Assembly: GCA_947561395.2 (NCBI GenBank) | Contig: OX387182.1 | Location: 4,660,001-4,724,000 of the forward strand | Direction of reading: 5' to 3' | Source of the DNA: Buxus sempervirens | Lineage: Eukaryota; Streptophyta; Magnoliopsida; Buxales; Buxaceae | DNA length: 64,000 nt | Shown: in pieces, positions 48,690 through 64,000 of the stretch | Layout: each line of letters starts with the position of its first letter | Numbering within the stretch: the stretch's first letter is position 1 | Program-made: the position numbers and the translations under genes | Notes under the pieces: generated by a model | What the model was told of the DNA's origin: nothing | The model's database searches: none | Seen by the model: the letters and a program-made list of their open reading frames with translations, nothing else

Positions 48690-50470
48690 TTGCGTTTTTT
48701 GAATTTTGATTGAGGGCTTTCATCTAAATCTACTTTTCGCTGGCCCGAGCTGGATGGCATAACCAGTAATGGTGTGAGGGGCACACAGGGAGCTTTCGCC
48801 TTCATTTCATTTCAACTATCAGGTCCACGTGAAGTATTGACACGCACGTAAAAAAGGGAGGAAGTAGTTTTAAAACTGCACGTGGAGAGAGAATAAATGG
48901 GGAGAGAAGGAATGGAGAGAGGAGAAGTAAGGATAGTTACAACTAATTGTTTTTGAACGAAAATAGTGAATTGAGACAGGTATAGCCCTGTATTATTGAA
49001 ACTAAACCATACAGGAGATGGGCATTTTGTGAAAGTTGTAACTTGTTGTTTGGCACGATTCCCAAAAAGGGCGCCTCGCTTTATATATAGTAAATCTACT
49101 TTTCGCTGGCCTGAGCTGGATGGCATAAACAGTAATGGTGTGAGGGGCACACACGGAGCTTTCGCCTTCATTTCATTTCAACTAGCAGGTCCACGTGAAG
49201 TACTGCACGCACGTAAAAAAGGGAGGAAGTAGTTTTAAAACTGCACGTGAAGAGAGAATAAATGGGGAGAGAGGGAATGGAGAGAGGAGAAGTAAGGGTA
49301 GTTACAAACTAATTGTTTTTGAACGAAAATAGTGAATTGAGACAGGTATAGCCTTGTATTATTGAAACTAAACCATACAGGAGATGGGCATTTTGTAAAA
49401 GTTGTAACTTGTTGTTTGGCACGATTCCCAAAAAGGGCGCCTCGCTTTATATATAGTAGATTTTAAAAAAGATATAGGGTGGCACGTGAGAAAATATGTA
49501 ATTAAATCTCTAGGCCCCCTTGGGAATCGTGCCAAGCTAAATGTGCATCTTGCCTTAAAAAAAAAACTAAATGTGCACCTTTCTTAAAAAAACTTTTACA
49601 AATCACTCTTAAGATTGTTTAATGAAGGGGTATAATAGTCAAAATTGTCTAATCCTATTAAAACTGAACTTAGCGGTTCTACAAGTGTTCCCTCTCTTAT
49701 TTTTTTATATACATGCAGTATTGCACATACAATTTGCTAGTAATTATATATAAGATGTATCAATAATGATGCATGCAACAAAACATATTTCCACCCAAAA
49801 AAAAAAAATGCAACAAAACATAATTTTAAAAGAAATGTTGCTGTTGGAAACTTGGAAAAGTGATTATTATTATTATTTGGGAAAATTGGTTTTTAATGAT
49901 ATTTTTTAAAAATAACCAAGATTCAAACGTTTAATTCTTGATAATAGGAAAATAGTGATTTTTTTAATATGTATTTGAGAATGAGTGTCATTTTACCATT
50001 CGCATATGTTTTCTTCCAAAAAAACCCTTGAAAGACTTCTTAACCTCGTTAAAGATGATGACAAACAAATTGTTTAGAAGTCTTTTAAAGACATTTTTTG
50101 AAAAAAAAAATCCTTTAGTTTCTAACTTATGATTAGAAAAAAAAAAACCAAAACAAAAATTTAAGGTAGATTTTGAAATTATTTAAAAGATAAATTTTCT
50201 TTCTTTGTTTTATTTTGTCTGAGTTATATTTTAGTATCATTACTATATAGTAGTTAAATAAGTATACACATAGGATTTGTCAAGAGTCAGCCTTATATTG
50301 ATTTTCGGGACCCTTACCTTTAAAATATTAAACATAACATTGCAATTTAAATTAACTAGAATTTTGTGGTGATTCCCGTGGCAATGTCGAAGTCGTAATT
50401 TCCGCTAATAATGATAGGTATAACTAAAAGAGCACACACACTTCGGAAGCAAAAATGAATCTTTTATCTT
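48690..50470. repeat. Duplicated segment, copy 1 (upstream of FPGS)
   Basis: This region matches a second copy at 50,905-51,500, continued at 63,111-64,000 on the other side of the LTR element. Matching landmarks are GCGTTTTTTGAATTTTGATT with GTGTTTTTTGAACTTTGATT, AGATTGTTTAATGAAGGGGT with its 51,390 counterpart, CAATTTGCTAGTAATTATAT on both sides of the junction, and GATTTTCGGGACCCTTACCT at 50,298 and 63,909. Divergence is visible throughout, so the duplication is older than the LTR element insertion. Confidence 0.8.
48725..49455. repeat. Tandem duplication, two 366-bp units
   Basis: The sequence starting TAAATCTACTTTTCGCTGGC at 48,725 repeats at 49,091 with few changes. Each unit contains AAAACTGCACGTG, GAGACAGGTATAGCC and ends GGGCGCCTCGCTTTATATAT then AGTA. 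Near identity shows the tandem event is younger than the larger segmental duplication, whose copy 2 has only a single unit. Confidence 0.92.
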
Positions 50471-50904: not shown

Positions 50905-51500
50905 AGTCTTGTCCCACATTGTGTTTTTTGAACTTTGATTGATCATTAAGGGTTTTATTTGAAATCTACTTTTGGCTAGCTGGCCTAAGCTGGAAGGAAT
51001 AATCTTTTTTCTTTTTTTTTTTGGATTCGAGATTTACTTTTATTAGAAAGAGATGAAGTCACAAAACAAAACGAGCAACAAATCTCCCAATAGAATCATC
51101 CAACAGAACATGGGAGCAGGGATATTCTTCAACCAAAAGCACGAAAAAAGTCTAACGCAAAATTCGCCAAAATATCTACAGAGTTGGAAGGAATAATTAG
51201 TAACGATGCGAGGGCCACACACAAAGCTTTCGCCTTCATTTCATTTTAATTTTCGAAAAGATATATGGTGGCGCGTGAGAAAATATCTAATTAAATCTCT
51301 ACTATATATAAAGTGAGATGCCCTCTTGGGAACCGCGCCAAGTTAAATTTGCATATTTCTTTGAAAAACCCTTACAAATCATTCTTAAGATTGTTTAATA
51401 AAGGGGTATAATAGTCATAACTGCCTAATTATATTAAAACCGAACTTAACATTTCTACAACCATTCCCTCTCTTATTTTTCTACATACCTGCAGTACTGC
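50905..51500. repeat. Duplicated segment, copy 2, left part
   Basis: Homologous to copy 1 from about 48,690 to 49,717, with one instead of two 366-bp-type units and most of that unit missing. It carries a small LINE insertion at 51,004-51,184 and is interrupted at 51,500 by the LTR element. The five bases ACTGC at 51,496-51,500 are the LTR target duplication. Confidence 0.75.
51004..51184 (-). mobile_element. Short 5'-truncated retroposon with 13-bp target duplication
   Basis: TGGAAGGAATAAT is present exactly at 50,991-51,003 and 51,185-51,197. The 181 bp between begin on plus with a T-rich run (CTTTTTTTTTT), a poly(A) tail on minus, and continue as a 3' tail resembling plant LINEs (GATTTACTTTTATTAGAAAG). 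Copy 1 of the segmental duplication lacks it, which confirms the insertion. Confidence 0.85.
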
Positions 51501-51615
51501 TGTAGACACCCCAAATTGCACTAAAAATGAGAAAATAATTGAAAATATTAATTGGGATTTGAAACAGGTCAAAAAAGTGTAAAATCTGACCAAATTGGTC
51601 ATGACCGTATTTTAT

Positions 51616-51713
51616 CTACGGACTGGTCATACCTGCAGTTGATATACGGTCACGGCATACCCGTATTAATAATACGGGCAGGGCGCGACCGTAATATATA
51701 TACGGGCACGGGG
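51616..51713 (+). repeat. 28-bp tandem hairpin repeat in the 5' LTR
   Basis: Units start at 51,616, 51,644, 51,672 and 51,700 with an exact 28-bp period and share the core ATACGGKCASGGC...CCGTA. Each full unit has complementary ends (ATACGG with CCGTAT). The same array is in the 3' LTR at 61,412-61,509, and a related one is in the internal leader at 54,555-54,672. Confidence 0.85.
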
Positions 51714-51914
51714 TCTTTGTGCGAATTTTACCTTTTTGATTTTTGAGCCTTATCTGCACCCAAATATCTCTCTTGGATAAGCGAATTCTCTTATTTATCT
51801 GTTCGAATTATCTCATTTATCCTTGTGGATAAAGGATTGGCATGATCTTGTGTTTAACTCAAACTGAAACTCTATCTTGCCAAACCTTGGACCAACCATA
51901 CCCCTGTGTTTGTC

Positions 51915-51923
51915 TATAAATAG
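51915..51923 (+). promoter_or_regulatory. Likely LTR TATA box
   Basis: TATAAATAG in the context TGTCTATAAATAGAGGC is a strong plant TATA box and would place the transcription start about 30 bp downstream, near 51,950. The copy in the 3' LTR is at 61,711-61,719. Confidence 0.65.
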
Positions 51924-53316
51924 AGGCTCTCTCCTCTAGCTAAGGGCCACGAAATTTTGAAGAATCAAAAGCTCCAAGAGAAGGAAAGGAATCCCTGCTG
52001 CTCTGCCTGCTCAATCCAGGTAAGTCCCCTATCCCTTTTTATTTTCTGTCTTCAATTCTAGATGTAATAGGATCATCTCTATTGCTGTAGAATAAGGCCT
52101 TATCTGTTTTTGTATTCCTAAACTTGTCTCTAAGTACCTCAAGGGTCTCTCTAGCCGTAAAACGTGAAGAGAGAACTAGGGGAAAGGGGAACAGGTGGAT
52201 CCCTAGAATAAAACCCCATATCTGTTTTTTTCCTTTTTCTAGAATAAAGCCTGTGATTGTGTTTGTGTACCCAAACCTATCTCTAAGTACCTCAAGAGTC
52301 TTTCTAGCCGTAAAACGTGAAGAGAGAACTAGGGGAAAGGGGAACAGGTGGATCCGTAGGGTAGACCCCCATGTGCTCAAATCTGTGAGATGTGGCTGTT
52401 TTAAATATCCTGATCATGTTTTAATGCTTTTTATGATATATCTGAATGAATAACATGAATCTATGATGTTTATAGCATGAGATCCTCTCTTTTTGATAAA
52501 ATTTGGATTTTTCACATATTTGCACCTACAGCACTGTTTTCGTGATTTTTGTGATTTTAGGCTAAGATCTTGGATTTATCATGATCAATATGGTAGATCT
52601 GGATCTAGAAGCTTGAAAATAAATTCTAGGGTTTCATGATATGGTTTTTAAATTGTTTTTCATTATTGAGAGAAGACCCTACGATCTAAATTCTCCCCTT
52701 TTGGCGTTTTTCATCAACGTTGGTCTTTTTGGTTTTGATTTACAGATTTAATGTGAAATTTGGGCTTTATCTATGTCTTGGATTATTCAAGTTCAATTTT
52801 GAAATATTTTATAAAAATCATATTTTTCTAATTTCTAGAATTTTGACTTGAAGCCAGATTTTGGGATTTTTCACTTTAAATTGATTTTATCCGATTTTAT
52901 CTCAATTTTATTTTGATCATGAAACCCTAGGAATGGTATGATCATGTTTGATAGTTCTGGATCAATCAAACTATTCATATGAAAAAACCATATATTTTTG
53001 CCTTTTTTGTGATTTTTCCTGATTTTTATAGCAAGCTTTTTCCTTTATTTTAAACATGAACAAATACCTGGCAACCACCTTGTGTGGATGAATAGGGGTG
53101 CCTAATACCTTCCCTTGTTCATAACTTAATCCCCTTACCCATCTCTGGTTGTTTTTTTTAGGATGGATATTTTGCCCTAAAATTTGCCTTTTTGCTTATT
53201 TAATATTTTGGTGTCCATTCACACCTAAATTGAATGGTGGCGACTCTTTGTTTTATATAATCCCGCGTGATGATTGAGGAAATCATTAGATTTGATTTTT
53301 TCCCATGTCTCACAAC

Positions 53317-53335
53317 TGGCGACTCTGCTGGGGAC
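53317..53335 (+). other. Primer-binding site
   Basis: TGGCGACTCTGCTGGGGAC begins two bases after the 5' LTR end. It starts with the TGG expected to pair with the CCA end of a tRNA. I could not assign the tRNA from memory. Confidence 0.75.
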
Positions 53336-54554
53336 TTGTGGATTTGAGCCTTTTGGTGTTTGTTCTTGTTTTTGATTTTTTTTTTTATGCTTGCTATTTT
53401 GTGTTCTTGAGCATGTTGAGTATATTTTAAATCTGAATTATTGCTTAAGAATTCATGGGGGTAGAAACATGCTTAATTTTGATCTATAGGATTGTTTCTA
53501 CAAACATGCGTAGGGGAGGTCCGTTTTGCTGAACCATGCTTATTTCTTGTTATATTTTTATGATAGCATGTTTTAATTTTCAGCATGATCTCCATGATGA
53601 TTTTGGGTGTATAACATGATCATATGTTTGCATGATAGATTTTTTTTATAAGCATGTTTTAGGTGCTATAGGATTGCTTTATTTACTTGTTTATTTTAAA
53701 TATGCTTTCCTATTATGCCTTGGTTTGTTTATGCATGGTTGCGAAAAGAGTGGCAAGGGTTTGGGACGTTGTGAATGCACCCAATTTTTACAATGCACTG
53801 TGCAAATTTATTTTTTACACAGCCTACCCTTAACCTATAGGAAGTTGAACCCGAATGTGTGTAGCTTGGCGCAACGAAGTCGATACTTCGGAAAGCGAAA
53901 GTGAAAACATTCACCTTAGAACTTTGAGCTAATGATGTGATGATAATGTGGATCTGGGATTCTGATCATCACTAGGCTTGAGTGCTAAGTTGCCATTAAG
54001 CCAAAACCCAAAACCCAAAACCCCTACGCTGGAAGGTGGAGTTACACGTTTTTGGCTAAAGTACACAATTACGTGGGAATATGGGTTTGTATGATTGTGG
54101 GAAGGCCGTGTGCATGGCTTACAAACCAGAGCATAATGCGGATGCTATATTTAAGGTAAACAAGGTAACAAGGTAATCCTATTGTTTTGCATTATTTTCA
54201 TGTCATAGGGGTGTCATGGTGCCCATTGGTTCGGGATAAAATTGGTCCCGAAATATGCATCTTTTCTAAAGTTGGTGCAGCCCATAGGAAGAGTCTCTAA
54301 CTCTGTCTAGAATCAATCCTACCCTATGTACACACAAGAGGCAACACAAGGGTACCAAATTCTAGAATATGGTGTCAAGTTGGAGGGTACATGTGCCCTC
54401 CCAAGCATGTGTTTTTACAAATAGGCCAAGGTCCACTTTGGGACAGTTTAGAAGCTCTGCACTAGGTGAACCGTATGTTTGGATGAGCAATTAAAGTGAT
54501 CAAACCACTAAAAACTGGAAAAATATAACAGGGTTCCGTAAAACCGCATTTAGT
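53336..54554 (+). other. Untranslated leader of the LTR element, first part
   Basis: About 1.2 kb with no protein signal. A small run CCAAAACCCAAAACCCAAAA at about 54,001 is not a telomere repeat. The rest shows no obvious structure by eye. Confidence 0.45.
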
Positions 54555-54672
54555 ACACGGGCTGGGCTTGCCCATATTTGTTATACGGGCTAGGCTCGCC
54601 CGTGTTTTCCATACGGTCACGGCTTGCTCGTAATTTGAATACGGGCAGGGCTGGATCGTACTGTGTATACGG
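54555..54672 (+). repeat. 28-bp tandem hairpin repeat in the leader
   Basis: Units start at 54,555, 54,583, 54,611, 54,639 and (partial) 54,667, with the same exact 28-bp period and ATACGG start as the LTR array. Stems such as ACGGGC...GCCCGT are visible in the second unit. It is probably derived from the LTR array, or the reverse. Confidence 0.85.
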
Positions 54673-54854
54673 TTTTCTCGGAATATTCAACTTTAATCAG
54701 TTTTTTCCACTAAAATCTTCCTTTAACCTTTAAATAATGATAAAGGGAAACAAGTTTGAATAAAATGCTTCAAAAAAAAACAAAAAAAACAAAAACAAAC
54801 AAACAAACAAAATAATTAAAAGAAAGAAAATGTGAGAGAAAGGTTCCTTGGGCT

Positions 54855-56138
54855 TCTGAAAGCCTTTGAATTTCAGACTTTTTCAAAACTCTTGGGCTTC
54901 TGAAAGCCTTTGAATTTCAGATTTTTCAAAAAAAATCCTGGGCTTCTGAAAGCCTTTGAATTTCAGATTTTTCAAAAAATTCCTCGGGCCTCTGAAAGCC
55001 TTTGAATTTCAGACTTTTTCTCCAAAAAAAAAACTTTTGGGCCTCTGAAAGCCTTTGAATTTCAGACTTTTTCTCAAAAAACTTTTGGGACTCTGAAAGC
55101 CTTTGAATTTCAGATCTTTTGGGCCTCTGAAAGCCTTTGAATTTCAGAACTTTTGGGCCTCTGAAAGCCTTTGAATTTCAAACCTTTTTCTTTTGGGCTT
55201 CTGAAAGCCTTTGAATTTCAGAACTTTTGGGCCTTTGAAAGCCTTTGAATTTCAGACCTTTTTCCTTTGGGCCGTCTATAAGCCTCTGAATTATAGACAC
55301 ATATCCTTTGGGCCGTCTAAAAGCCTCTGAATTTTAGACAAATCATTTTTTTTTGGGCCGTCTAAAAGCCTCTGAATTTTAGACAATCATTTCTTTGGGC
55401 CGTCTATAAGCCTCTGAATTATAGACACATATCCTTTGGGCCTCTGAAAGCCTTTGAATTTTAGACTTTTTTCAAAAATATCCTTGGGCCTCTGAAAGCC
55501 TTTGAATTTCAGACTTTTTTCAAAAATATCCCTGGGCCGTCTAAAAGCCTCTGAATTTTAGACAAATCATTTCTTTGGGCCGTCTAAAAGCCTCTGAATT
55601 TTAGACAAATCATTTCTTTGGGCCGTCTAAAAGCCTCTAAATTTTAGACAATCATTTCTTTTGGGCCGTCTAAAAGCCTCTGAATTTTAGACAAATCATT
55701 TCTGTGGGCCGTCTAAAAGCCTCTGAATTTTAGACAATTATTTCTTTTGGGCCGTCTAAAAGCCTCTGAATTTTAGACAAATCATTTCTTTGGGCCGTCT
55801 ATAAACCTCTGAATTATAGACATATATCCTTTGGGCCGTCTAAAAGCCTCTGAATTTTAGACAAATCATTCCTTTGGGCCATCTATAAGCCTCTGAATTA
55901 TAGACACATATCCTTTGGGCCTCTGAAAGCCTTTGAATTTCAGACCTTTTTCAAAAATACCCCTAGGCCTCTGAAAGCCTTTGAATTTCAGACTTTTTCT
56001 AAAAATATCCCTGGGCCTCTGAAAGCCTTTGAATTTCAGACCTTTTTCCAAAAACACCCCTGGGCCTCTGAAAGCCTTTGAATTTCAGATCCTTTTCTCT
56101 TTTTGTGGGACCCGTTGGAAGCCCTAGAATATTCCAAC
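54855..56138 (+). repeat. Array of about 30 hairpin units with covarying stems
   Basis: Tandem units of about 35-48 bp, each containing an inverted repeat around the loop GCCTTTGAA or GCCTCTGAA, separated by a GGGC-containing linker. Stem classes: TCTGAAA/TTTCAGA (about 15 units), GTCTAAAA/TTTTAGAC (about 9), GTCTATAA/TTATAGAC (about 4, two of them with a single change), one mixed unit near 55,443, and a final GTTGGAA/TTCCAAC unit at 56,114-56,138. Both arms change together between classes while the loop is kept. The array ends about 195 bp before the gag ATG, so it belongs to the untranslated RNA leader. Confidence 0.93.
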
Positions 56139-56332
56139 AATTCTAAAAAAAAAAAAAAAAAAAAGAAGCAAATAAAGAAACAAATCCAAACTCGTGTTCA
56201 CCCAGCTTGCACATAGGCATTCATAGGCATGTGAATAAGATTAAATGGGCACTGATATTTTCTCCTTTATTTTTCCAGGTACCAAGTACACTTGCAACCA
56301 TAGCTCTTGTAACCAAATCAAGAGCTCGCGCC

Positions 56333-58030
56333 ATGAATCCCATTGAGACTGAAGCTGATGCTCCTCACCCAGATATTGTCTTGCTTCAGGAACAAGTGGC
56401 AGGACTAGCCCGAATGCTAGAAAACATACTATCAGTGCAGGCCGAACAAGTCCAAGCCCAGAACTAAGCCTCCACTTCCAACCAAGCACCCCCGCCTCAA
56501 ACCAACATTCCACCTCCAGTTCAACCCATTCCTGAACCCATTTCTGAACCTACCCCCGAACCTATACTGATCAGGGAGGAGACGGTTGAGTCTGAGAAAG
56601 AGAAGGAAAAAGAGAGAATGAGGGATGAGATGGAAAAGAAGTTCATGCATAGGCTGGAGATTATTCAGGATGAGCTAAGGGAAGTGAAGGGAGTTAAATC
56701 ATTTGGAGGCACGAATTTTGAAGATCTGTGCCTATACCCCGATGCATGTCTACCGGCCAAGTTTAAATGCCCAGATTTTGATAAATATGATGGCACTAGC
56801 TGCCCAATGAGCCATTTGAAGTTATACTACGGGGCTTTATGCCAGTTTGGCCGAGATGACGGCATACTAATTCAGCTCTTCCAGAGGAGTTTAACTGGAG
56901 CTGCTTTGAGGTGGTTTGCCACTTTGGATCATGGGAAAATAAGAAGGTGGAAGGATTTAGCAGATTCCTTTTTGGCACAATACAAGTTCAACTCTGAGAT
57001 TATACCAGATAGGTACGACATGATGAGGATGACGAAGAGAAATGATGAGACCATAAGGCAATATGCTAAAAGGTGGAGGGAGTTGGCTGCACAAGTCAAG
57101 CCACCTGTGGGAGAACCAGAAATGATTTCAACCTTCATCAGCACACTGGGGCAACCCTTTTACAGTCACTTGGTGGGTCAAACTACCACCAACTTTGCTG
57201 CCCTAGTGCAAGTGGCAGACAGAATTGAAGATGGGATCAAGTCTGGGAAAATAGCTGATTACTCTGCAGTGTTGACCCAGGAAGCTTCCACCACTCTCTC
57301 TACACAGAAAAAGGAGAATGGTAATGGAAGAAGAAAGAATGAAGAAAGGATAGAAGCAGAAGTGAATATGGTGCAACTTCCTAGGGAACCCTTTCAAATC
57401 AATTTCCATCCACCTCCTATCAAGCCAACCCATCAATTTCCTTTGCTGCCTATTCAAATTAATGTCCCTTCTGCACAGCCTGTGAAGGAGGAAACAGAAG
57501 TAAGGAAGAGAAGGGAATTTTCTAAACTGCCTATGAGACCATCTGAGCTTTTGCTTACTTTACTTCAAAAGGGTTATATGACTTTGAGGTTGCCAAATCC
57601 TCATGCAAGTAAGGGGAAGGGTTATGATTCATCTGCAATCTATGAGTATCATATGAGCACTCCAGGGCATACCACAGATCGTTGCTTGGCCCTAAAGCAT
57701 GCAATCCAAGATTTGTTGGATAATAACTCCTTATCATTCAATTCAATCACACCCATCCCACCTACTGATAACAATGGGGCAGGCAGCTCAAATGCAATAG
57801 GGGCAATTTTCTCTAGAGAAAGAAGATTTGACCCTTCTCAGCTTATCGCTCCTATTGGTCCAACAGTCGGGGTTTATCTTGAAAGAAATGCTCCTAGTTA
57901 TGAACAGGAAGACCTGCCTCACCCAGCAGGAGAAAGAAGTTTTCTGAAAAAGAAAGAAAAATCAGCTTTTGCCTTTAAGAACAGGCGCAATTTTCGAACT
58001 CCCATGTTCTTTGAAAAGAAACTCCCATAA
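56333..58030 (+). pseudogene. gag: Ty3-type gag, one in-frame stop
   Basis: The ORF starts at ATG 56,333 (MNPIETEADAPHPDIVLLQE), meets TAA at 56,465-56,467, and continues in the same frame to TAA at 58,028-58,030. After the stop comes a Pro-rich stretch, a charged helix (REETVESEKEKEKERMRDEM), and a retrotransposon gag domain: KLYYGALCQFGRDD, LIQLFQRSLTGAALRWFATL, WKDLADSFLAQYKF, MTKRNDETIRQYAKRWRELA and ISTLGQPFYSHLVGQT. Near the C-terminus YEYHMSTPGHTTDRCLALKH resembles the CxYH...GHxTxxC knuckle but has lost its first Cys. The remaining 470-codon frame (from 56,618) is intact, so a truncated gag could still be made. Confidence 0.9.
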
Positions 58031-60752
58031 GAAGAATCCACATTTCCTGAGAATCCTAAGGAGCCTTGTTCTCAGGAAGTGATTTCAATAAAGGCTCTTC
58101 AAAAAAAAAAATAAAAAAAGATTTTCCCCTTTAACATTTTTCTAGAAAAAAAAAAGAGTTTTTAGCAAGGTCCTTTTACTTATGAATCATATCTCCTATT
58201 GAATTTTATTAAGTTGAATATGACTTTGACATTGGGCTCAATTTTGAGACCAAAATCGAAGAAAAAGACATTTTATGTGAAAATTCAAATTTTTTTAAGT
58301 GTCATGAGAAGAATATTCTGCAAAATTATGAAATGACCAATTTTATGGCCTTTGGAACCAAAGATGACCCATAGTCTTCAATAGAAAAGATAGAAGAAGA
58401 TTTGAAGTTCCTTCATTATAATTCAGAAAAGGATCGCACCACTTGCTGATTCGTTCAAAGGGAAGTTGAGAATATTGTTTGAAGAAATTTTGGGGCTTTG
58501 CACTTGAAAATATGGGAGAAGATTTGACATTTTCGTTGGAAATAGAATTGGGCATTATTTGTGGAAAGAATCCAAATTCATAAGATTGATCAAAAGGTGA
58601 AGAACTTGTTCATAATAGAGATCTTATTTGAAGAGGCTTTTATCTTGATAGAAGTTGATTTAAAAAGAAGGAGAAAAAATTCCTGAACTAGTCATGTAGT
58701 ACAACTTTACCGAGTCTGAAAATTCAAACTTTTCTTAAAATGATAAGAGGCCTTTCTTTCTTATATCCCCAAAAATTTTGAAATCCCTAGTCAGACCCTT
58801 TGAGCTTGATACATTTTTCCAAGTAACCTAGACTGAGAATTGTAACCCCACACTGGGGCAAATTTATTAAGGCATAAAAAAAAGGGGGGGGGGGGGGGAA
58901 TGAAGGGACAATTGTTGAAGTTTAAAAGGGATTTAGAAGATGTTTTCAGAAAAGGGGGCAAAGAAAAGAAAAGAAAAAAAAAAGAAGAAAAAGAAAAAAA
59001 AAAAGGAAGAAAAAAAAGATAATCAAATGCTATTTGGAGAATGTCTTCAAAATTGTGAAGAAAAGAATGGAAAAAAGAAGTTCAATAGTGGAGAATAAGT
59101 TTCAAATGAAGAAATCAAATTGAGGGAAGAACTTCATTACTGGGGCAATTTTGTATTCATTCCAAGGGAAGAAATGCCTTAAAAATTACAATTTCAGTTA
59201 ACCCATTTGATCATAGGGTATTTGAGCCTTTTATTCCTTTTCTTTCTAAACTAACACCAGGCCTTCGTTTCGTCCCATTCATAAGTCCTCTTTGATTAAG
59301 AAATTTTGAATTAAGGCAGTTTTGACTACATGGTTATTGGTGATGAAGGATAAAAAAAAAAAAAGAAAAGAAAAGAAAGAAAAAGAAAAAGGAAAAAATG
59401 GAGAAAATGTAGTGAAAACCCGAAAGGGTGCTACATGGCAAATAATCAGCTATCTACAAGAAGGAAATCGTCAGAGAGGAAAGTCCAGAATTGGTATAGA
59501 TCCAGGTGAAGTCCTCATGTTGGTGGTTATTTTGAGATACAGTCACTCTTCAAGTGATTGAGGAAAGTCTTCTTTTCAAGACTGAAGCAACATAATCAAA
59601 ACTATGGTATGAAGCATCTGTGAACAAGCTGATGGCCATCAAAATTGTCATTAGGAAATTATTGCTGAAGTTGAAGTCATAAATTCCTATATCATGAATA
59701 CAATGGAGAAGCAATTGCTCTTCAATTGGATAAAAGAAAATGTCTTTCTAGACTGGGGCAAAATAGTTAGATTGAAAGAGTTGTTATATCTGGAGCATCA
59801 ATTGACAAGCTGATGGTCATAGGAATGATTCTAAAGGTTCCGAAGGCTTATTTTGGTCTTTCTTCATTTTCTGAAATAATCTTCTCATTATTCAACTTGA
59901 TTTTAATTCTTTTGAACTATATGCTAATAAGTGATTGGATCATTTTTTTCAAAAAAATATAAAAGCACAAAAAAGCAAAAAAATATATTTTTGGCCTATG
60001 ATGAGAATCTATATCTTTTCATAAAACATTGGTTTTGCAAGCATTAGAGAATTCTGAGGCAACTAGTATAAAACATATTTTCTTATGTTTGCATTTGCAT
60101 TCTTCTATTAGGGTTTCTTTTTGGCAAAGGTTAAAAAAAAAAAAAAGAAGAGAAAAAAAAAAGAGAAAAAGGAAAAAAGAGGATCATCTCTATTGAGGGG
60201 CAAATACTTCTTCAAACAATCAAAACCGGGGCATGCTCAATGTCTTTCCTTCTGGGTTTTCATTGGAATGGATTCCAACATCTAGAAGAAGCAATCAAGC
60301 TTTAGTCTTCGAATTTGAAAGAAAAAAAAAAGGCTTCGAAGCAATGGCATGTTTTCTTCATTAAACAAGGGTTCCCAATTCTTCAATCATGAAGAAGGAT
60401 TTTACTGGGGCAGCAAGAAGGCATGAAAGACAGATAATGGGTTGTAAAGGCATGAGGTTAGATCAACAGATCATGATCCATCAATCAAGATGAGAGCATT
60501 CACTTGGGCAATTAAAAAGCATATAGACAGGTTATGAGCAGTAATGGCACATACATCGTTATTGAGAGAGCAAGAAGATAAAGAAGCAAAAGCAAGTTGC
60601 AAAATATTCAAGCATAGGTTCGGGCATCAAATGGCACCCAGGTATATCAAATAAGAAAATCAATCAGGAAAATTCAAAAAGTGAAAAACATCAAAATCAA
60701 TTGAGTTTGCAGTGGTCAATTTTAAATCCACATTCTTTTCAAAAATTGCTTG
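58031..60752 (+). other. Non-coding interior of the LTR element where pol would be expected
   Basis: No reverse transcriptase, integrase or protease motif in any frame. Features are purine-only stretches (GAAAAGAAAAGAAAAAA-type, near 58,965, 59,350 and 60,135), a G11 run at 58,887-58,898 or so, and the word CTGGGGCA at 58,853, 59,140, 59,753 and 60,405. This looks like unrelated or strongly decayed filler rather than a recent pol deletion. Confidence 0.7.
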
Positions 60753-60798
60753 TCTCAGATTTCTTTTCATAGCCATGAGAGCTCCAAGAAATCTGAGA
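60753..60798 (+). other. Hairpin with 13-bp perfect stem near the 3' end
   Basis: TCTCAGATTTCTT at 60,753-60,765 pairs exactly with AAGAAATCTGAGA at 60,786-60,798 around the 20-nt loop TTCATAGCCATGAGAGCTCC. A second hairpin with a very similar loop but a different stem lies about 310 bp downstream. Confidence 0.85.
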
Positions 60799-61069
60799 TA
60801 AGGAAGAGACGCCACCCCACTTCAAGCAGGGGTTTCATTGGCTATCTTCGAATCCATGTTTTTATCATTTCTTTGTTTGACCAAAGCAAGTTCAATTAAT
60901 GAAATGTTGTGTCTATTCTTTACTGTTCATTGTGCTACAACTACAAGCCACCCAGAAAAATTTATTTTTCATCATTTTCTCCACACTTTTCAGGAGATTA
61001 ATGTTTATATTAGTTGTAAGTTGCAAGGATTGCCACCTTACCCACTTTTGTTTTAAAATTTGTCTCAAA

Positions 61070-61101
61070 TCTCACTTCATAGCCACGAGTGCTCAGTGAG
61101 A
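61070..61101 (+). other. Second hairpin sharing the loop sequence
   Basis: TCTCACT at 61,070-61,076 pairs with AGTGAGA at 61,095-61,101 around the loop TCATAGCCACGAGTGCTC, which matches the first hairpin's loop apart from about three bases. It lies about 180 bp before the polypurine tract. Confidence 0.75.
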
Positions 61102-61282
61102 CTAGAGAGGAGGATTTGGCCCTTAAGCTGAGGGACTTCTTAGCAAATCTTCCGCAATGAATTCTTTTTACCAAAATCATCCATTTAATCCTTGCAAAAT
61201 GCAATTAGTTAGACAAAGATCTCAAAAAGTGCAATTGGTGGGTCTTTTTACTCTCTGCTGGTAATTGGTTCCAATCACCAGC

Positions 61283-61296
61283 AAAGAGGGGGCAGC
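61283..61296 (+). other. Polypurine tract
   Basis: AAAGAGGGGGCAGC directly precedes the 3' LTR, as expected for the plus-strand primer, although CAGC rather than pure purine abuts the LTR. Confidence 0.72.
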
Positions 61297-63110
61297 TGTA
61301 GACACCCCAAATTGCACTAAAAATGAGAAAATAATTGAAAATATTAATTGGGATTTGAAACAGGTCAAAAAAGTGTAAAATCTGACCAAATTGGTCATGA
61401 CCGTATTTTATCTACGGACTGGTCATACCTGCAGTTGATATACGGTCACGGCATACCCGTATTAATAATACGGGCAGGGCGCGACCGTAATATATATACG
61501 GGCACGGGGTCTTTGTGCGAATTTTACCTTTTTGATTTTTGAGCCTTATCTGCACCCAAATATCTCTCTTGGATAAGCGAATTCTCTTATTTATCTGTTC
61601 GAATTATCTCATTTATCCTTGTGGATAAAGGATTGGCATGATCTTGTGTTTAACTCAAACTGAAACTCTATCTTGCCAAACCTTGGACCAACCATACCCC
61701 TGTGTTTGTCTATAAATAGAGGCTCTCTCCTCTAGCTAAGGGCCACGAAATTTTGAAGAATCAAAAGCTCCAAGAGAAGGAAAGGAATCCCTGCTGCTCT
61801 GCCTGCTCAATCCAGGTAAGTCCCCTATCCCTTTTTATTTTCTGTCTTCAATTCTAGATGTAATAGGATCATCTCTATTGCTGTAGAATAAGGCCTTATC
61901 TGTTTTTGTATTCCTAAACTTGTCTCTAAGTACCTCAAGGGTCTCTCTAGCCGTAAAACGTGAAGAGAGAACTAGGGGAAAGGGGAACAGGTGGATCCCT
62001 AGAATAAAACCCCATATCTGTTTTTTTCCTTTTTCTAGAATAAAGCCTGTGATTGTGTTTGTGTACCCAAACCTATCTCTAAGTACCTCAAGAGTCTTTC
62101 TAGCCGTAAAACGTGAAGAGAGAACTAGGGGAAAGGGGAACAGGTGGATCCGTAGGGTAGACCCCCATGTGCTCAAATCTGTGAGATGTGGCTGTTTTAA
62201 ATATCCTGATCATGTTTTAATGCTTTTTATGATATATCTGAATGAATAACATGAATCTATGATGTTTATAGCATGAGATCCTCTCTTTTTGATAAAATTT
62301 GGATTTTTCACATATTTGCACCTACAGCACTGTTTTCGTGATTTTTGTAATTTTAGGCTAAGATCTTGGATTTATCATGATCAATATGGTAGATCTGGAT
62401 CTAGAAGCCTGAAAATAAATTCTAGGGTTTCATGATATGGTTTTTAAATTGTTTTTCATTATTGAGAGAAGACCCTACGATCTAAATTCTCCCCTTTTGG
62501 CGTTTTTCATCAACGTGGGTCTTTTTGGTTTTGATTTACAGATTTAATGTGAAATTTGGGCTTTATCTATGTCTTGGATTATTCAAGTTCAATTTTGAAA
62601 TATTTTATAAAAATCATATTTTTCTAATTTCTAGAATTTTGACTTGAAGCCAGATTTTGGGATTTTTCACTTTAAATTGATTTTATCTGATTTTATCTCA
62701 ATTTTATTTTGATCATGAAACCCTAGGAATGGTATGATCATGTTTGATAGTTCTGGATCAATCAGACTATTCATATGAAAAAACCATATATTTTTGCCTT
62801 TTTTGTGATTTTTCCTGATTTTTATAGCAAGCTTTTTCCTTTATTTTAAACATGAACAAATACCTGGCAACCACCTTGTGTGGATGAATAGGGGTGCCTA
62901 ACACCTTCCCTTGTTCATAACTTAATCCCCTTACCCATCTCTGGTTGTTTTTTTTAGGAGGGATATTTTGCCCTAAAATTTGCCTTTTTGCTTATTTAAT
63001 ATTTTGGTGTCCATTCACACCTAAATTGAATGGTGGCGACTCTTTGTTTTATATAATCCCGCGTGATGATTGAGGAAATCATTAGATTTGATTTTTTCCC
63101 ATGTCTCACA
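61297..63110 (+). repeat. 3' LTR
   Basis: 1,814 bp, the same length as the 5' LTR, with about seven substitutions, all in its last 770 bp. It is followed by the target duplication ACTGC. Confidence 0.96.
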
Positions 63111-64000
63111 ACTGCACGTGCAATTTGCTAGTAATTATATATAAGATGTATTAATAATGATGCATGATGCACGTGATTAATTTAAAATTATATTAAAAAC
63201 ATAATAATAAAAGAGATATTGCTGTTGGAAACTTGGAAAAGTGATTATTATTATTATTTGGGAAAATTGGTTTTTAATGATACTTTTTAAAAATAACCGA
63301 GATTCAAACGTTTAATTCTGGATAATATGAAAATAGCGATTTTTTTAATATACACTTGAGAATGAGTACCATTCACATATGTGTAGAATTATTTAAGTAC
63401 TATATATATAGTAATGATACTAAAATATAGCTTAGACAGAATAAAACAAATGAGTACCATTTGTTTACAAGTCTTTTAAAGGCATTTTTTGAAAAAAAAA
63501 ATCCTTTGGTTTCTAACTTATGATTAGAGGGAAAAAAAAAAGCAAAAATTTAAGGTAGATTTTGAAATTATTTAAAAGATAAACTTTCTTTCTTTGTTTT
63601 ATTCTAAGTTATATTTTAGTATCATTACTATATATATAGTAGTTAAATAATTCTACACATAGGATTTGTTGTAATTGGATGGTTTGAATTGTTCTTGCCC
63701 GCAAGGGAAGATAGTCTTTTCACAACAACTATTGTCAACTCTTCAGGAAATAAATTGATCCAATAAAAACCACAGCTTATGTACATGCACAAAACCATTA
63801 GGCATGGAGTTTTGACCAAATGGCAATGAACCGCCTATCAAATATTTGTTGGTGATGTTAGGTTAGATTTGGGTTGACTTGATATTGGTCAAGAGTCAGC
63901 CTCGTATTGATTTTCGGGACCCTTACCTTTAAAATATTAAACATAACATTGCAATTTCTGCTAGTAATGATAGGTATAACTAAAAGAGCACCCACACTTC
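63111..64000. repeat. Duplicated segment, copy 2, right part
   Basis: Continues the homology to copy 1 (about 49,717-50,450): GCTGTTGGAAACTTGGAAAA, then GTGATTATTATTATTATTTG, and later GATTTTCGGGACCCTTACCT and TAACTAAAAGAGCAC. There are small indels relative to copy 1, and extra DNA at about 63,665-63,885. It runs off the window end. Confidence 0.8.

Follow-up and report, generated by a model that had tools for sequence, protein, structure and literature searches.

Why should the leader of a plant LTR retrotransposon carry about thirty copies of a short inverted repeat whose two arms change together? The question is raised by an element in the window (the whole 64,000-nt stretch of Buxus sempervirens DNA analyzed here), for which a sequence-only reading had described tandem hairpins with compensatory stem changes and proposed a role in the RNA.

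The array-bearing retrotransposon

The element is an LTR retrotransposon of 11.6 kb on the forward strand. Its 5′ LTR (51501–53314, TGTAGACACC...TCTCACA) and 3′ LTR (61297–63110) are 99.6% alike, so the insertion should be recent, and they are flanked by the target duplication ACTGC at 51496–51500 and 63111–63115. The primer-binding site TGGCGACTCTGCTGGGGA (53317–53334, +) is suggested by its position and form, its complement ending in CCA; like the 5-bp duplication and the purine-rich tract just before 61297, it was assigned by eye. The gag gene (56333–58030, +) matches PF03732 (Retrotrans_gag) and, though its frame is broken by one in-frame TAA at 56465–56467, is the sole ORF of at least 120 aa with a start codon between 44000 and 64000. 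The 3′ region (58031–61296, +) has no recognizable pol: in a Pfam search of ten of the short frames lying downstream of gag and before the 3′ LTR no pol family was found, the one match being at chance level (E 0.05). In a divergent subfamily the longest frame in a 1.2-kb sample downstream of gag (L107) is 71 aa, and two short frames there look, by eye, like frames near 58.2 kb of the window. On account of the single large ORF, the lack of pol in Pfam and the lack of a long frame in L107, the family is probably gag-only and TR-GAG-like: matching LTRs, a target duplication, a primer site and gag are all found, and pol is not, just as TR-GAG elements have LTRs and gag and no pol. The form of the element alone points to the Tat/Ogre lineage, a placement that is only suggested, no pol having been found.

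The sequence into which the element has inserted is present a second time next door (window 49568–50280, 51344–51500 and 63113–63669), which allows a direct comparison with the empty site. Upstream of the insertion, at 48725–49458, lie two 366-bp tandem copies that are ~97% alike, and each LTR contains two internal direct copies of ~134 bp, 87% alike (52088–52372 and 61884–62168).

Thirty units between the primer site and gag

We counted 30 tandem pseudoknot-like units at 54850–56139 (+), in agreement with the thirty previously placed at 54855–56138 between the primer site and gag; 29 are of the GCCTYTGAA type and the last is of the GCCCTAGAATA type. Searches within the array found neither a tRNA nor a long ORF. 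The first unit, an example of class 1 (54850–54877, +), can be parsed as a short 5′ strand GGGC (S1), a T (L1), the 5′ arm TCTGAAA (S2), a second S1 strand GCCT, the linker TTGAA (L3) and the 3′ arm TTTCAGA. Class 2, as in 55310–55339 (+), reads in the same order GGGC, C, (G)TCTAAAA, GCCT, CTGAA and TTTTAGA(C), and class 3, as in 55269–55298 (+), has the arms (G)TCTATAA/TTATAGA(C), which differ from those of class 2 by a coupled change of A-U to U-A. The last unit (56108–56139, +) is of the b-type, GTTGGAA-GCCCTAGAATA-TTCCAAC after GGGACCC, with the architecture of the units of ~75 bp in the L075 subfamily. Thus, the stem versions named earlier, TCTGAAA, (G)TCTAAAA, (G)TCTATAA and one GTTGGAA unit, are all present.

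The seven-base arms are wholly Watson-Crick in 27 of the 30 units and, with G.U allowed, wholly standard in 29. One-sided changes had been reported at three places: those in the units starting at 55229 and 55438 were recovered; the unit at 55876, near the third, is indeed altered, but only in its outer eighth pair (A-C); and a further one, an A-C mismatch in the unit at 55155, had been missed. Similarly, the inner 7 bp of the stem as first drawn hold up, but many units of the GTCTAAAA type have A-C where an eighth, outer pair would be, and the stem is better counted as 7 bp. Upstream of the array, in the same leader, are 3–4 decayed 28-bp repeats, tandem and inverted, around ACGGGC...GCCCGT (54557–54672). 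A search of the leader (53300–56400) against Rfam gave nothing above the gathering score; as its two matches, at E 0.55–0.6, lie far below gathering, a known Rfam RNA is ruled out.

Paired changes in the stem across the genome

Units of this architecture occur in thousands of copies in the 676-Mb genome: the exact 30-mer of class 2 has 2482 genome copies against 0 control matches, the b-type pattern 10,629 against 0 and a further, c-type, pattern 1050 against 1. We collected 1878 units from 76 loci, the window's own copy (L001) among them, anchoring on the loop alone (AA or TT beside it); removal of 70 lacking a purine-run S1 strand and of 1 false anchor left 1807. The sampled stretches hold 7 to 51 units each, some of them ending within the array. 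The stem sequences of divergent subfamilies number more than ten, and pairing is mostly retained in them: besides TCTGAAA, TCTAAAA and TCTATAA these include TTTGAAA, TTTGGAA, CTTGGAA, GTTGGAA and TCTAGAA, each with its complement, as well as CTTGAAA, CCTGAAA, TAAGGAA, TTCTAAA and CCTGGAA with theirs (CCTGGAA being paired over CTGGAA), and a TGTGGAA type with a standing mismatch. Over 1808 units every one of the seven S2 pairs is at least 94% Watson-Crick, with several pair types at positions 3–7.

A MAFFT alignment of whole units (68 strings, some of 73 being left out) did not keep S1 and the 3′ arms in register, and covariation was therefore tested on pieces in fixed register, using 113 distinct 22-letter unit forms picked in a class-balanced way from 239 distinct forms, all from related loci of the same genome. 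Over the whole structure we found 161 double-change cells, where shuffles average 46 (0 of 500 reach 161) and sliding the structure by 1–3 columns gives at most 41; S2 by itself has 153, with a shuffle average of 45 (0 of 500) and no more than 38 on sliding. The numbers of pairs showing a double change are less distinctive, namely 6 against a shuffle mean of 4.7 for the whole structure (75 of 500 shuffles reach 6) and 5 against 3.7 for S2 (44 of 500 reach 5); all these shuffle statistics take the units as independent, ignoring their kinship. Hence, the paired arm changes first noticed in the window recur far more strongly genome-wide, and one-sided changes, whose equal frequency would have counted against the sequence-only reading, are rarer than paired ones: of the 791 S2 cells, 153 are double, 23 one-sided and 46 unpaired. 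Simple tandem-repeat drift is ruled out by paired changes so far above both shuffles and slides. Among one-sided S2 changes G.U should outnumber A-C, but no clear excess is seen (160 against 136 cells, p 0.18); without the outermost pair the counts become 128 and 80, a choice that was post hoc and with units that are non-independent. Taken together, the stem S2 is well supported by the sequence comparisons.

Additional hairpins accompany the arrays in some subfamilies. In L071, L075, L079, L082, L090 and L098 another hairpin, close to GATTGGT/ACCAATC, is interleaved with the b-type units, and its stem varies too (GTTTGGT, and GGTTGG with G.U). Upstream of the arrays, L075, L079, L082, L090 and L098 have CCGAC...GTCGG-like hairpins, roughly four in tandem, of which some have decayed and some show whole-stem variants, e.g., ATCCGAT...ATCGGAT.

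A second helix and a likely H-type pseudoknot

The loop of these units had been described as nearly constant. In the 45 commonest groups it is not: it starts with GCCT, GCTT or GCCC, following the bases before the 5′ arm, so that GGGC, AGGC, AAGC or GGG can pair with a loop start of GCCU, GCUU or CCC as a second helix, S1. In the main class of the window GGGC goes with GCCT, with one G.U. Among units with the stems CTTGGAA and TCTAGAA, all 30 with a GCTT loop have AAGC before the arm. A GCCC loop start mostly accompanies GGG, and GCCT accompanies AGG or GGG. The TCTAGAA stem carries both AAGC/GCTT (13 units) and AGGC/GCCT (8), and since the arms are identical, S1 changes apart from S2. Pattern searches for the b- and c-types, which are free of the purine-run rule and whose listed places are all on one contig (C1), point the same way. 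For the c-type, where neither side was fixed in the search, 37 of the 61 units with letters among the 100 matches listed have A-U as their second S1 pair and 19 have G-C, the remainder being 2 A-C, 2 U-U and 1 G-U; for b-type units starting with A at the first S1 position, the base opposite is U in 88, C in 11 and G in 1 of 100 listed of 1745. Over 1808 units the first S1 pair is G.U in 1325 and A-C in 8. Where neighboring units differ in S1, each pairs better with its own partner in 77 of 85 cases, equally well in 5 and better when swapped in 3, which rules out S1 pairing with a neighboring unit.

The covariation results for S1 are mixed. In the 113 forms its three pairs show 8 double-change cells, where shuffles average 1.4 and 0 of 500 reach 8. 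Against S1, seven window-type units with GCTT retain GGGC; 95.0% of cells are paired in register against 97.3 and 99.1 when slid by +1 and +2, as purines there face pyrimidines; and the number of pair types is within the shuffle range (402 of 500 reach that of S1). In a stricter set of 81 forms seen at least 2 times, with four S1 pairs, 85.5% are paired against a shuffle mean of 84.1 and maximum of 85.8, with 2 double-change cells where shuffles reach up to 4. The second pair is A-C in 36 and A-U in 37 of the 1808 units, a count to which units in the wrong register contribute. The register itself was set by a purine run favoring R-R-G, a rule that biases the 5′ letters and not the 3′ letters. 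Thus, the covariation case for S1 is positive, but weaker than that for S2 and partly negative; it comes mainly from whole classes differing on both sides, through few independent changes, which we judge to be three or four.

The two crossing helices with their short connecting loops fit an H-type pseudoknot. Such folds have an L1 of 1–2 nt over an S2 of 6–7 bp, an L2 of 0–1 nt and an L3 of at least 3 nt over an S1 of 3–5 bp. In 1723 of the 1807 units both helices are kept (all three pairs of S1 and six or more of the seven of S2, G.U allowed). The linkers of the units comprise an L1 mostly of 1–3 nt over the 7-bp S2, an L2 of 0–1 nt and an L3 of 3–7 nt, ending in A, over an S1 of 3–4 bp. The loop lengths thereby lie within the H-type limits, the b-type having an L1 of 3, an L2 of 1 and an L3 of 7, and a few units fall outside. 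By a rough energy sum, combining helix energies from ViennaRNA with an assumed pseudoknot penalty, six of eight unit types favor the pseudoknot by 0.9–3.5 kcal/mol over the best single fold, while the two b-types, the most numerous units, do not (−6.2 against −6.9 and −4.5 against −4.9). Weighing these lines, we consider a pseudoknot to be the likely form of the unit as an RNA feature. The earlier proposal of a hairpin whose loop is read by a protein is altered accordingly: the unit is probably an H-type pseudoknot and its "loop" is in part the second strand of another helix, so that no protein reading the whole loop is required to account for its constant start. The strand comparison also favors the RNA-level reading of the array put forward at the outset: its first 900 nt fold better in the sense orientation than 20 of 20 shuffles (z −2.4), as against z +0.5 in antisense, where 13 of 20 shuffles are as good.

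A predicted intron around the array

Candidate splice signals flank the array on both sides. On the 5′ side we identified a cluster of three candidate AAG|GTAA sites (54155–54174, +; GT at 54155, 54165 and 54173), and on the 3′ side a candidate acceptor (56253–56278, +) comprising a branch-like CTGAT, a pyrimidine tract and CAG, so that the array lies within a probable leader intron of 2.1 kb, ending at 56278. Rows for the 3′ site were obtained from 59 of the 76 loci: one is a false anchor, and each of the other 58 combines a branch-like motif with a pyrimidine tract (median 83% pyrimidine), ending in CAGG in 49 and in another AG form in 9. For the 5′ site there are rows from 25 of the 76 loci, 23 with AAGGTA and 2 false anchors. 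Loci lacking a row appear mostly to be those whose stretch ends before the site or whose anchor word differs. In two L077-type loci, CTAAT, a pyrimidine tract and AG are kept amid different sequence; the 5′ site gave no row from any L077-type locus. If the array is indeed intronic, the unspliced genomic RNA alone would carry it, which counts for a mark on that RNA and against the simple block to scanning that had been raised as one of the possibilities.

The array of the window contains no AUG, while AUGs are frequent in the leader outside it. The same holds over the 76 loci, with 156 AUGs in arrays against 1426 expected by base composition and 824 in the flanking leader against 774 expected. 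Ranked by depletion among the trinucleotides, however, AUG comes only 6th, 9th and 3rd in the three subfamilies compared, and CAT is far less depleted than AUG in arrays, being enriched in L077-like ones. As other trinucleotides are equally depleted, the scarcity is not peculiar to AUG.

Relation to known systems

Viral leaders with pseudoknots in tandem, and plant Ty3/gypsy elements with tandem arrays in their untranslated regions, are both known. The retroviral packaging signal lies downstream of the major splice donor, between the primer site and gag; like the array, as predicted here, it is a structured leader element kept in unspliced RNA only, but it consists of few non-repeated stems rather than tens of equal units. 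The upstream pseudoknot domain of tobacco mosaic virus has few pseudoknot copies, and the transport element of the mouse MusD retroelement is a single copy with one complex fold, acting where export machinery differs from that of plants. As far as the available portion of the source describes it, the MusD element is otherwise similar in containing a pseudoknot, belonging to an LTR element and acting on full-length RNA (PMC12786077). The tobacco mosaic virus domain likewise comprises consecutive short pseudoknots in the RNA of a plant virus and is important in replication and translation, but unlike the array it is in the 3′ UTR (PMC4683447, in part). A further parallel is foot-and-mouth disease virus (FMDV), which has pseudoknots in tandem and in variable number in its 5′ leader; they are reported to be needed for infectious virus, a role in virion assembly has been suggested, and more copies are reported to confer a competitive advantage (PMC9203018, available portion). 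FMDV differs in being a picornavirus with 2–4 copies and not tens, with no LTR element and no intron. Finally, Tat-lineage (Ogre) elements have variable tandem arrays in plant Ty3/gypsy retrotransposons, some of them non-autonomous and gag-bearing, but these are located in the 3′ UTR, and in the available text of that study the words "hairpin" and "palindrom-" are absent and no pairing is described (PMC7004042).

In the literature searched, which was mostly open-access, no paper came up on arrays of repeats, hairpins or covarying pseudoknots in the leader of an LTR element, and we know of no leader pseudoknot array in TR-GAG elements.

Possible function and rival explanations

We tentatively propose, at slightly less than an even chance for the explanation as a whole, that the array works in cis as an RNA element of the retrotransposon's sense-strand transcript and serves in packaging. 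The full-length genomic RNA would retain the intron with its pseudoknots, and the spliced RNA, without the array, would make Gag. The repeated pseudoknots would then form a multivalent tag through which Gag recognizes, dimerizes and packages the unspliced RNA, with repetition raising avidity, which would matter since a gag-only element must use the reverse transcriptase of another element. New stem versions would arise by mutation on both sides and then spread via unit amplification, and either Gag or a host export factor would read the array as a label of genomic RNA. Packaging by Gag, taken as a function by itself, is an inference and to our mind falls somewhat short of an even chance; we rank it first because the tandem leader pseudoknots of FMDV are reported as necessary for infectious virus, with that suggested part in virion assembly. 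Counting against the packaging explanation are the 31 AUGs upstream of the predicted intron in the window and the scarcity of AUG within the array, which is not something that an intron would need.

The main non-functional rival, which we regard as rather unlikely, is that DNA template switching, to the nascent or the opposite strand, corrects quasi-palindromes to perfect palindromes, with the units then amplifying as a neutral by-product. Such events could give paired stem changes without selection, as a single one can both make a stem and restore its pairing (PMC8794818, in part), and tandem repeats are common in Tat-lineage untranslated regions (PMC7004042, in part); the overall balance of one-sided G.U and A-C changes also agrees with it. 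By itself, however, template switching would predict neither a crossing helix of 3–4 bp re-paired independently of the arms, nor linker lengths within the H-type limits, nor the retention of a G.U at one S1 pair across a whole class. Nuclear export or retention, the main functional rival, is an unlikely alternative in which the pseudoknots would let intron-containing genomic RNA leave the nucleus unspliced, in the manner of the transport elements of certain animal retroelements. Those known in animals work as one or two copies, unlike the tens of units here. The array is held by a probable intron, where an export element would be needed, and according to a review MusD uses pseudoknot and kissing-loop motifs to export its full-length transcripts, but whether plant elements possess export motifs of a different, CAR-like kind is described there as unclear (PMC12786077, in part). 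We rank export second, since intron-retaining RNA needs it and the MusD element provides a pseudoknot precedent.

It is improbable that S1 and S2 are alternative hairpins of a conformational switch that never form together. In some types S1 alone is about as stable as S2 alone (the c-type with AGGC, −4.5 against −4.3), but the loops of six units that we examined (a-, c- and e-type) allow both helices at once and the energy sum favors both, and there is no evident reason for 30 equal switches. More improbable still is translational or splicing control, whereby the leader structure would hold off ribosomes or draw distant splice sites together. The 2.1-kb predicted intron and the scarce AUGs of the arrays would suit it, but AUGs are abundant in the flanking leader and, AUG being only one of several depleted trinucleotides, their scarcity may reflect repeat composition.

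Implications

These arrays may represent a new class of retroelement cis-element, a proposal that we advance with some reserve as it falls a little below an even bet: tens of tandem H-type pseudoknots would be carried only by the unspliced RNA of a gag-only element, both helices would drift under selection for base pairing, and the pseudoknot "alphabets" of subfamilies would diverge, possibly as specificity tags keeping the RNA of one subfamily apart from the Gag of another. To our knowledge, it is poorly understood how plant LTR retrotransposons tell genomic RNA from mRNA, and how gag-only elements compete for the enzymes of another element. That one genome should offer natural variants of a small pseudoknot by the thousand is unusual in itself, and such data could serve to weigh compensatory evolution against template switching.
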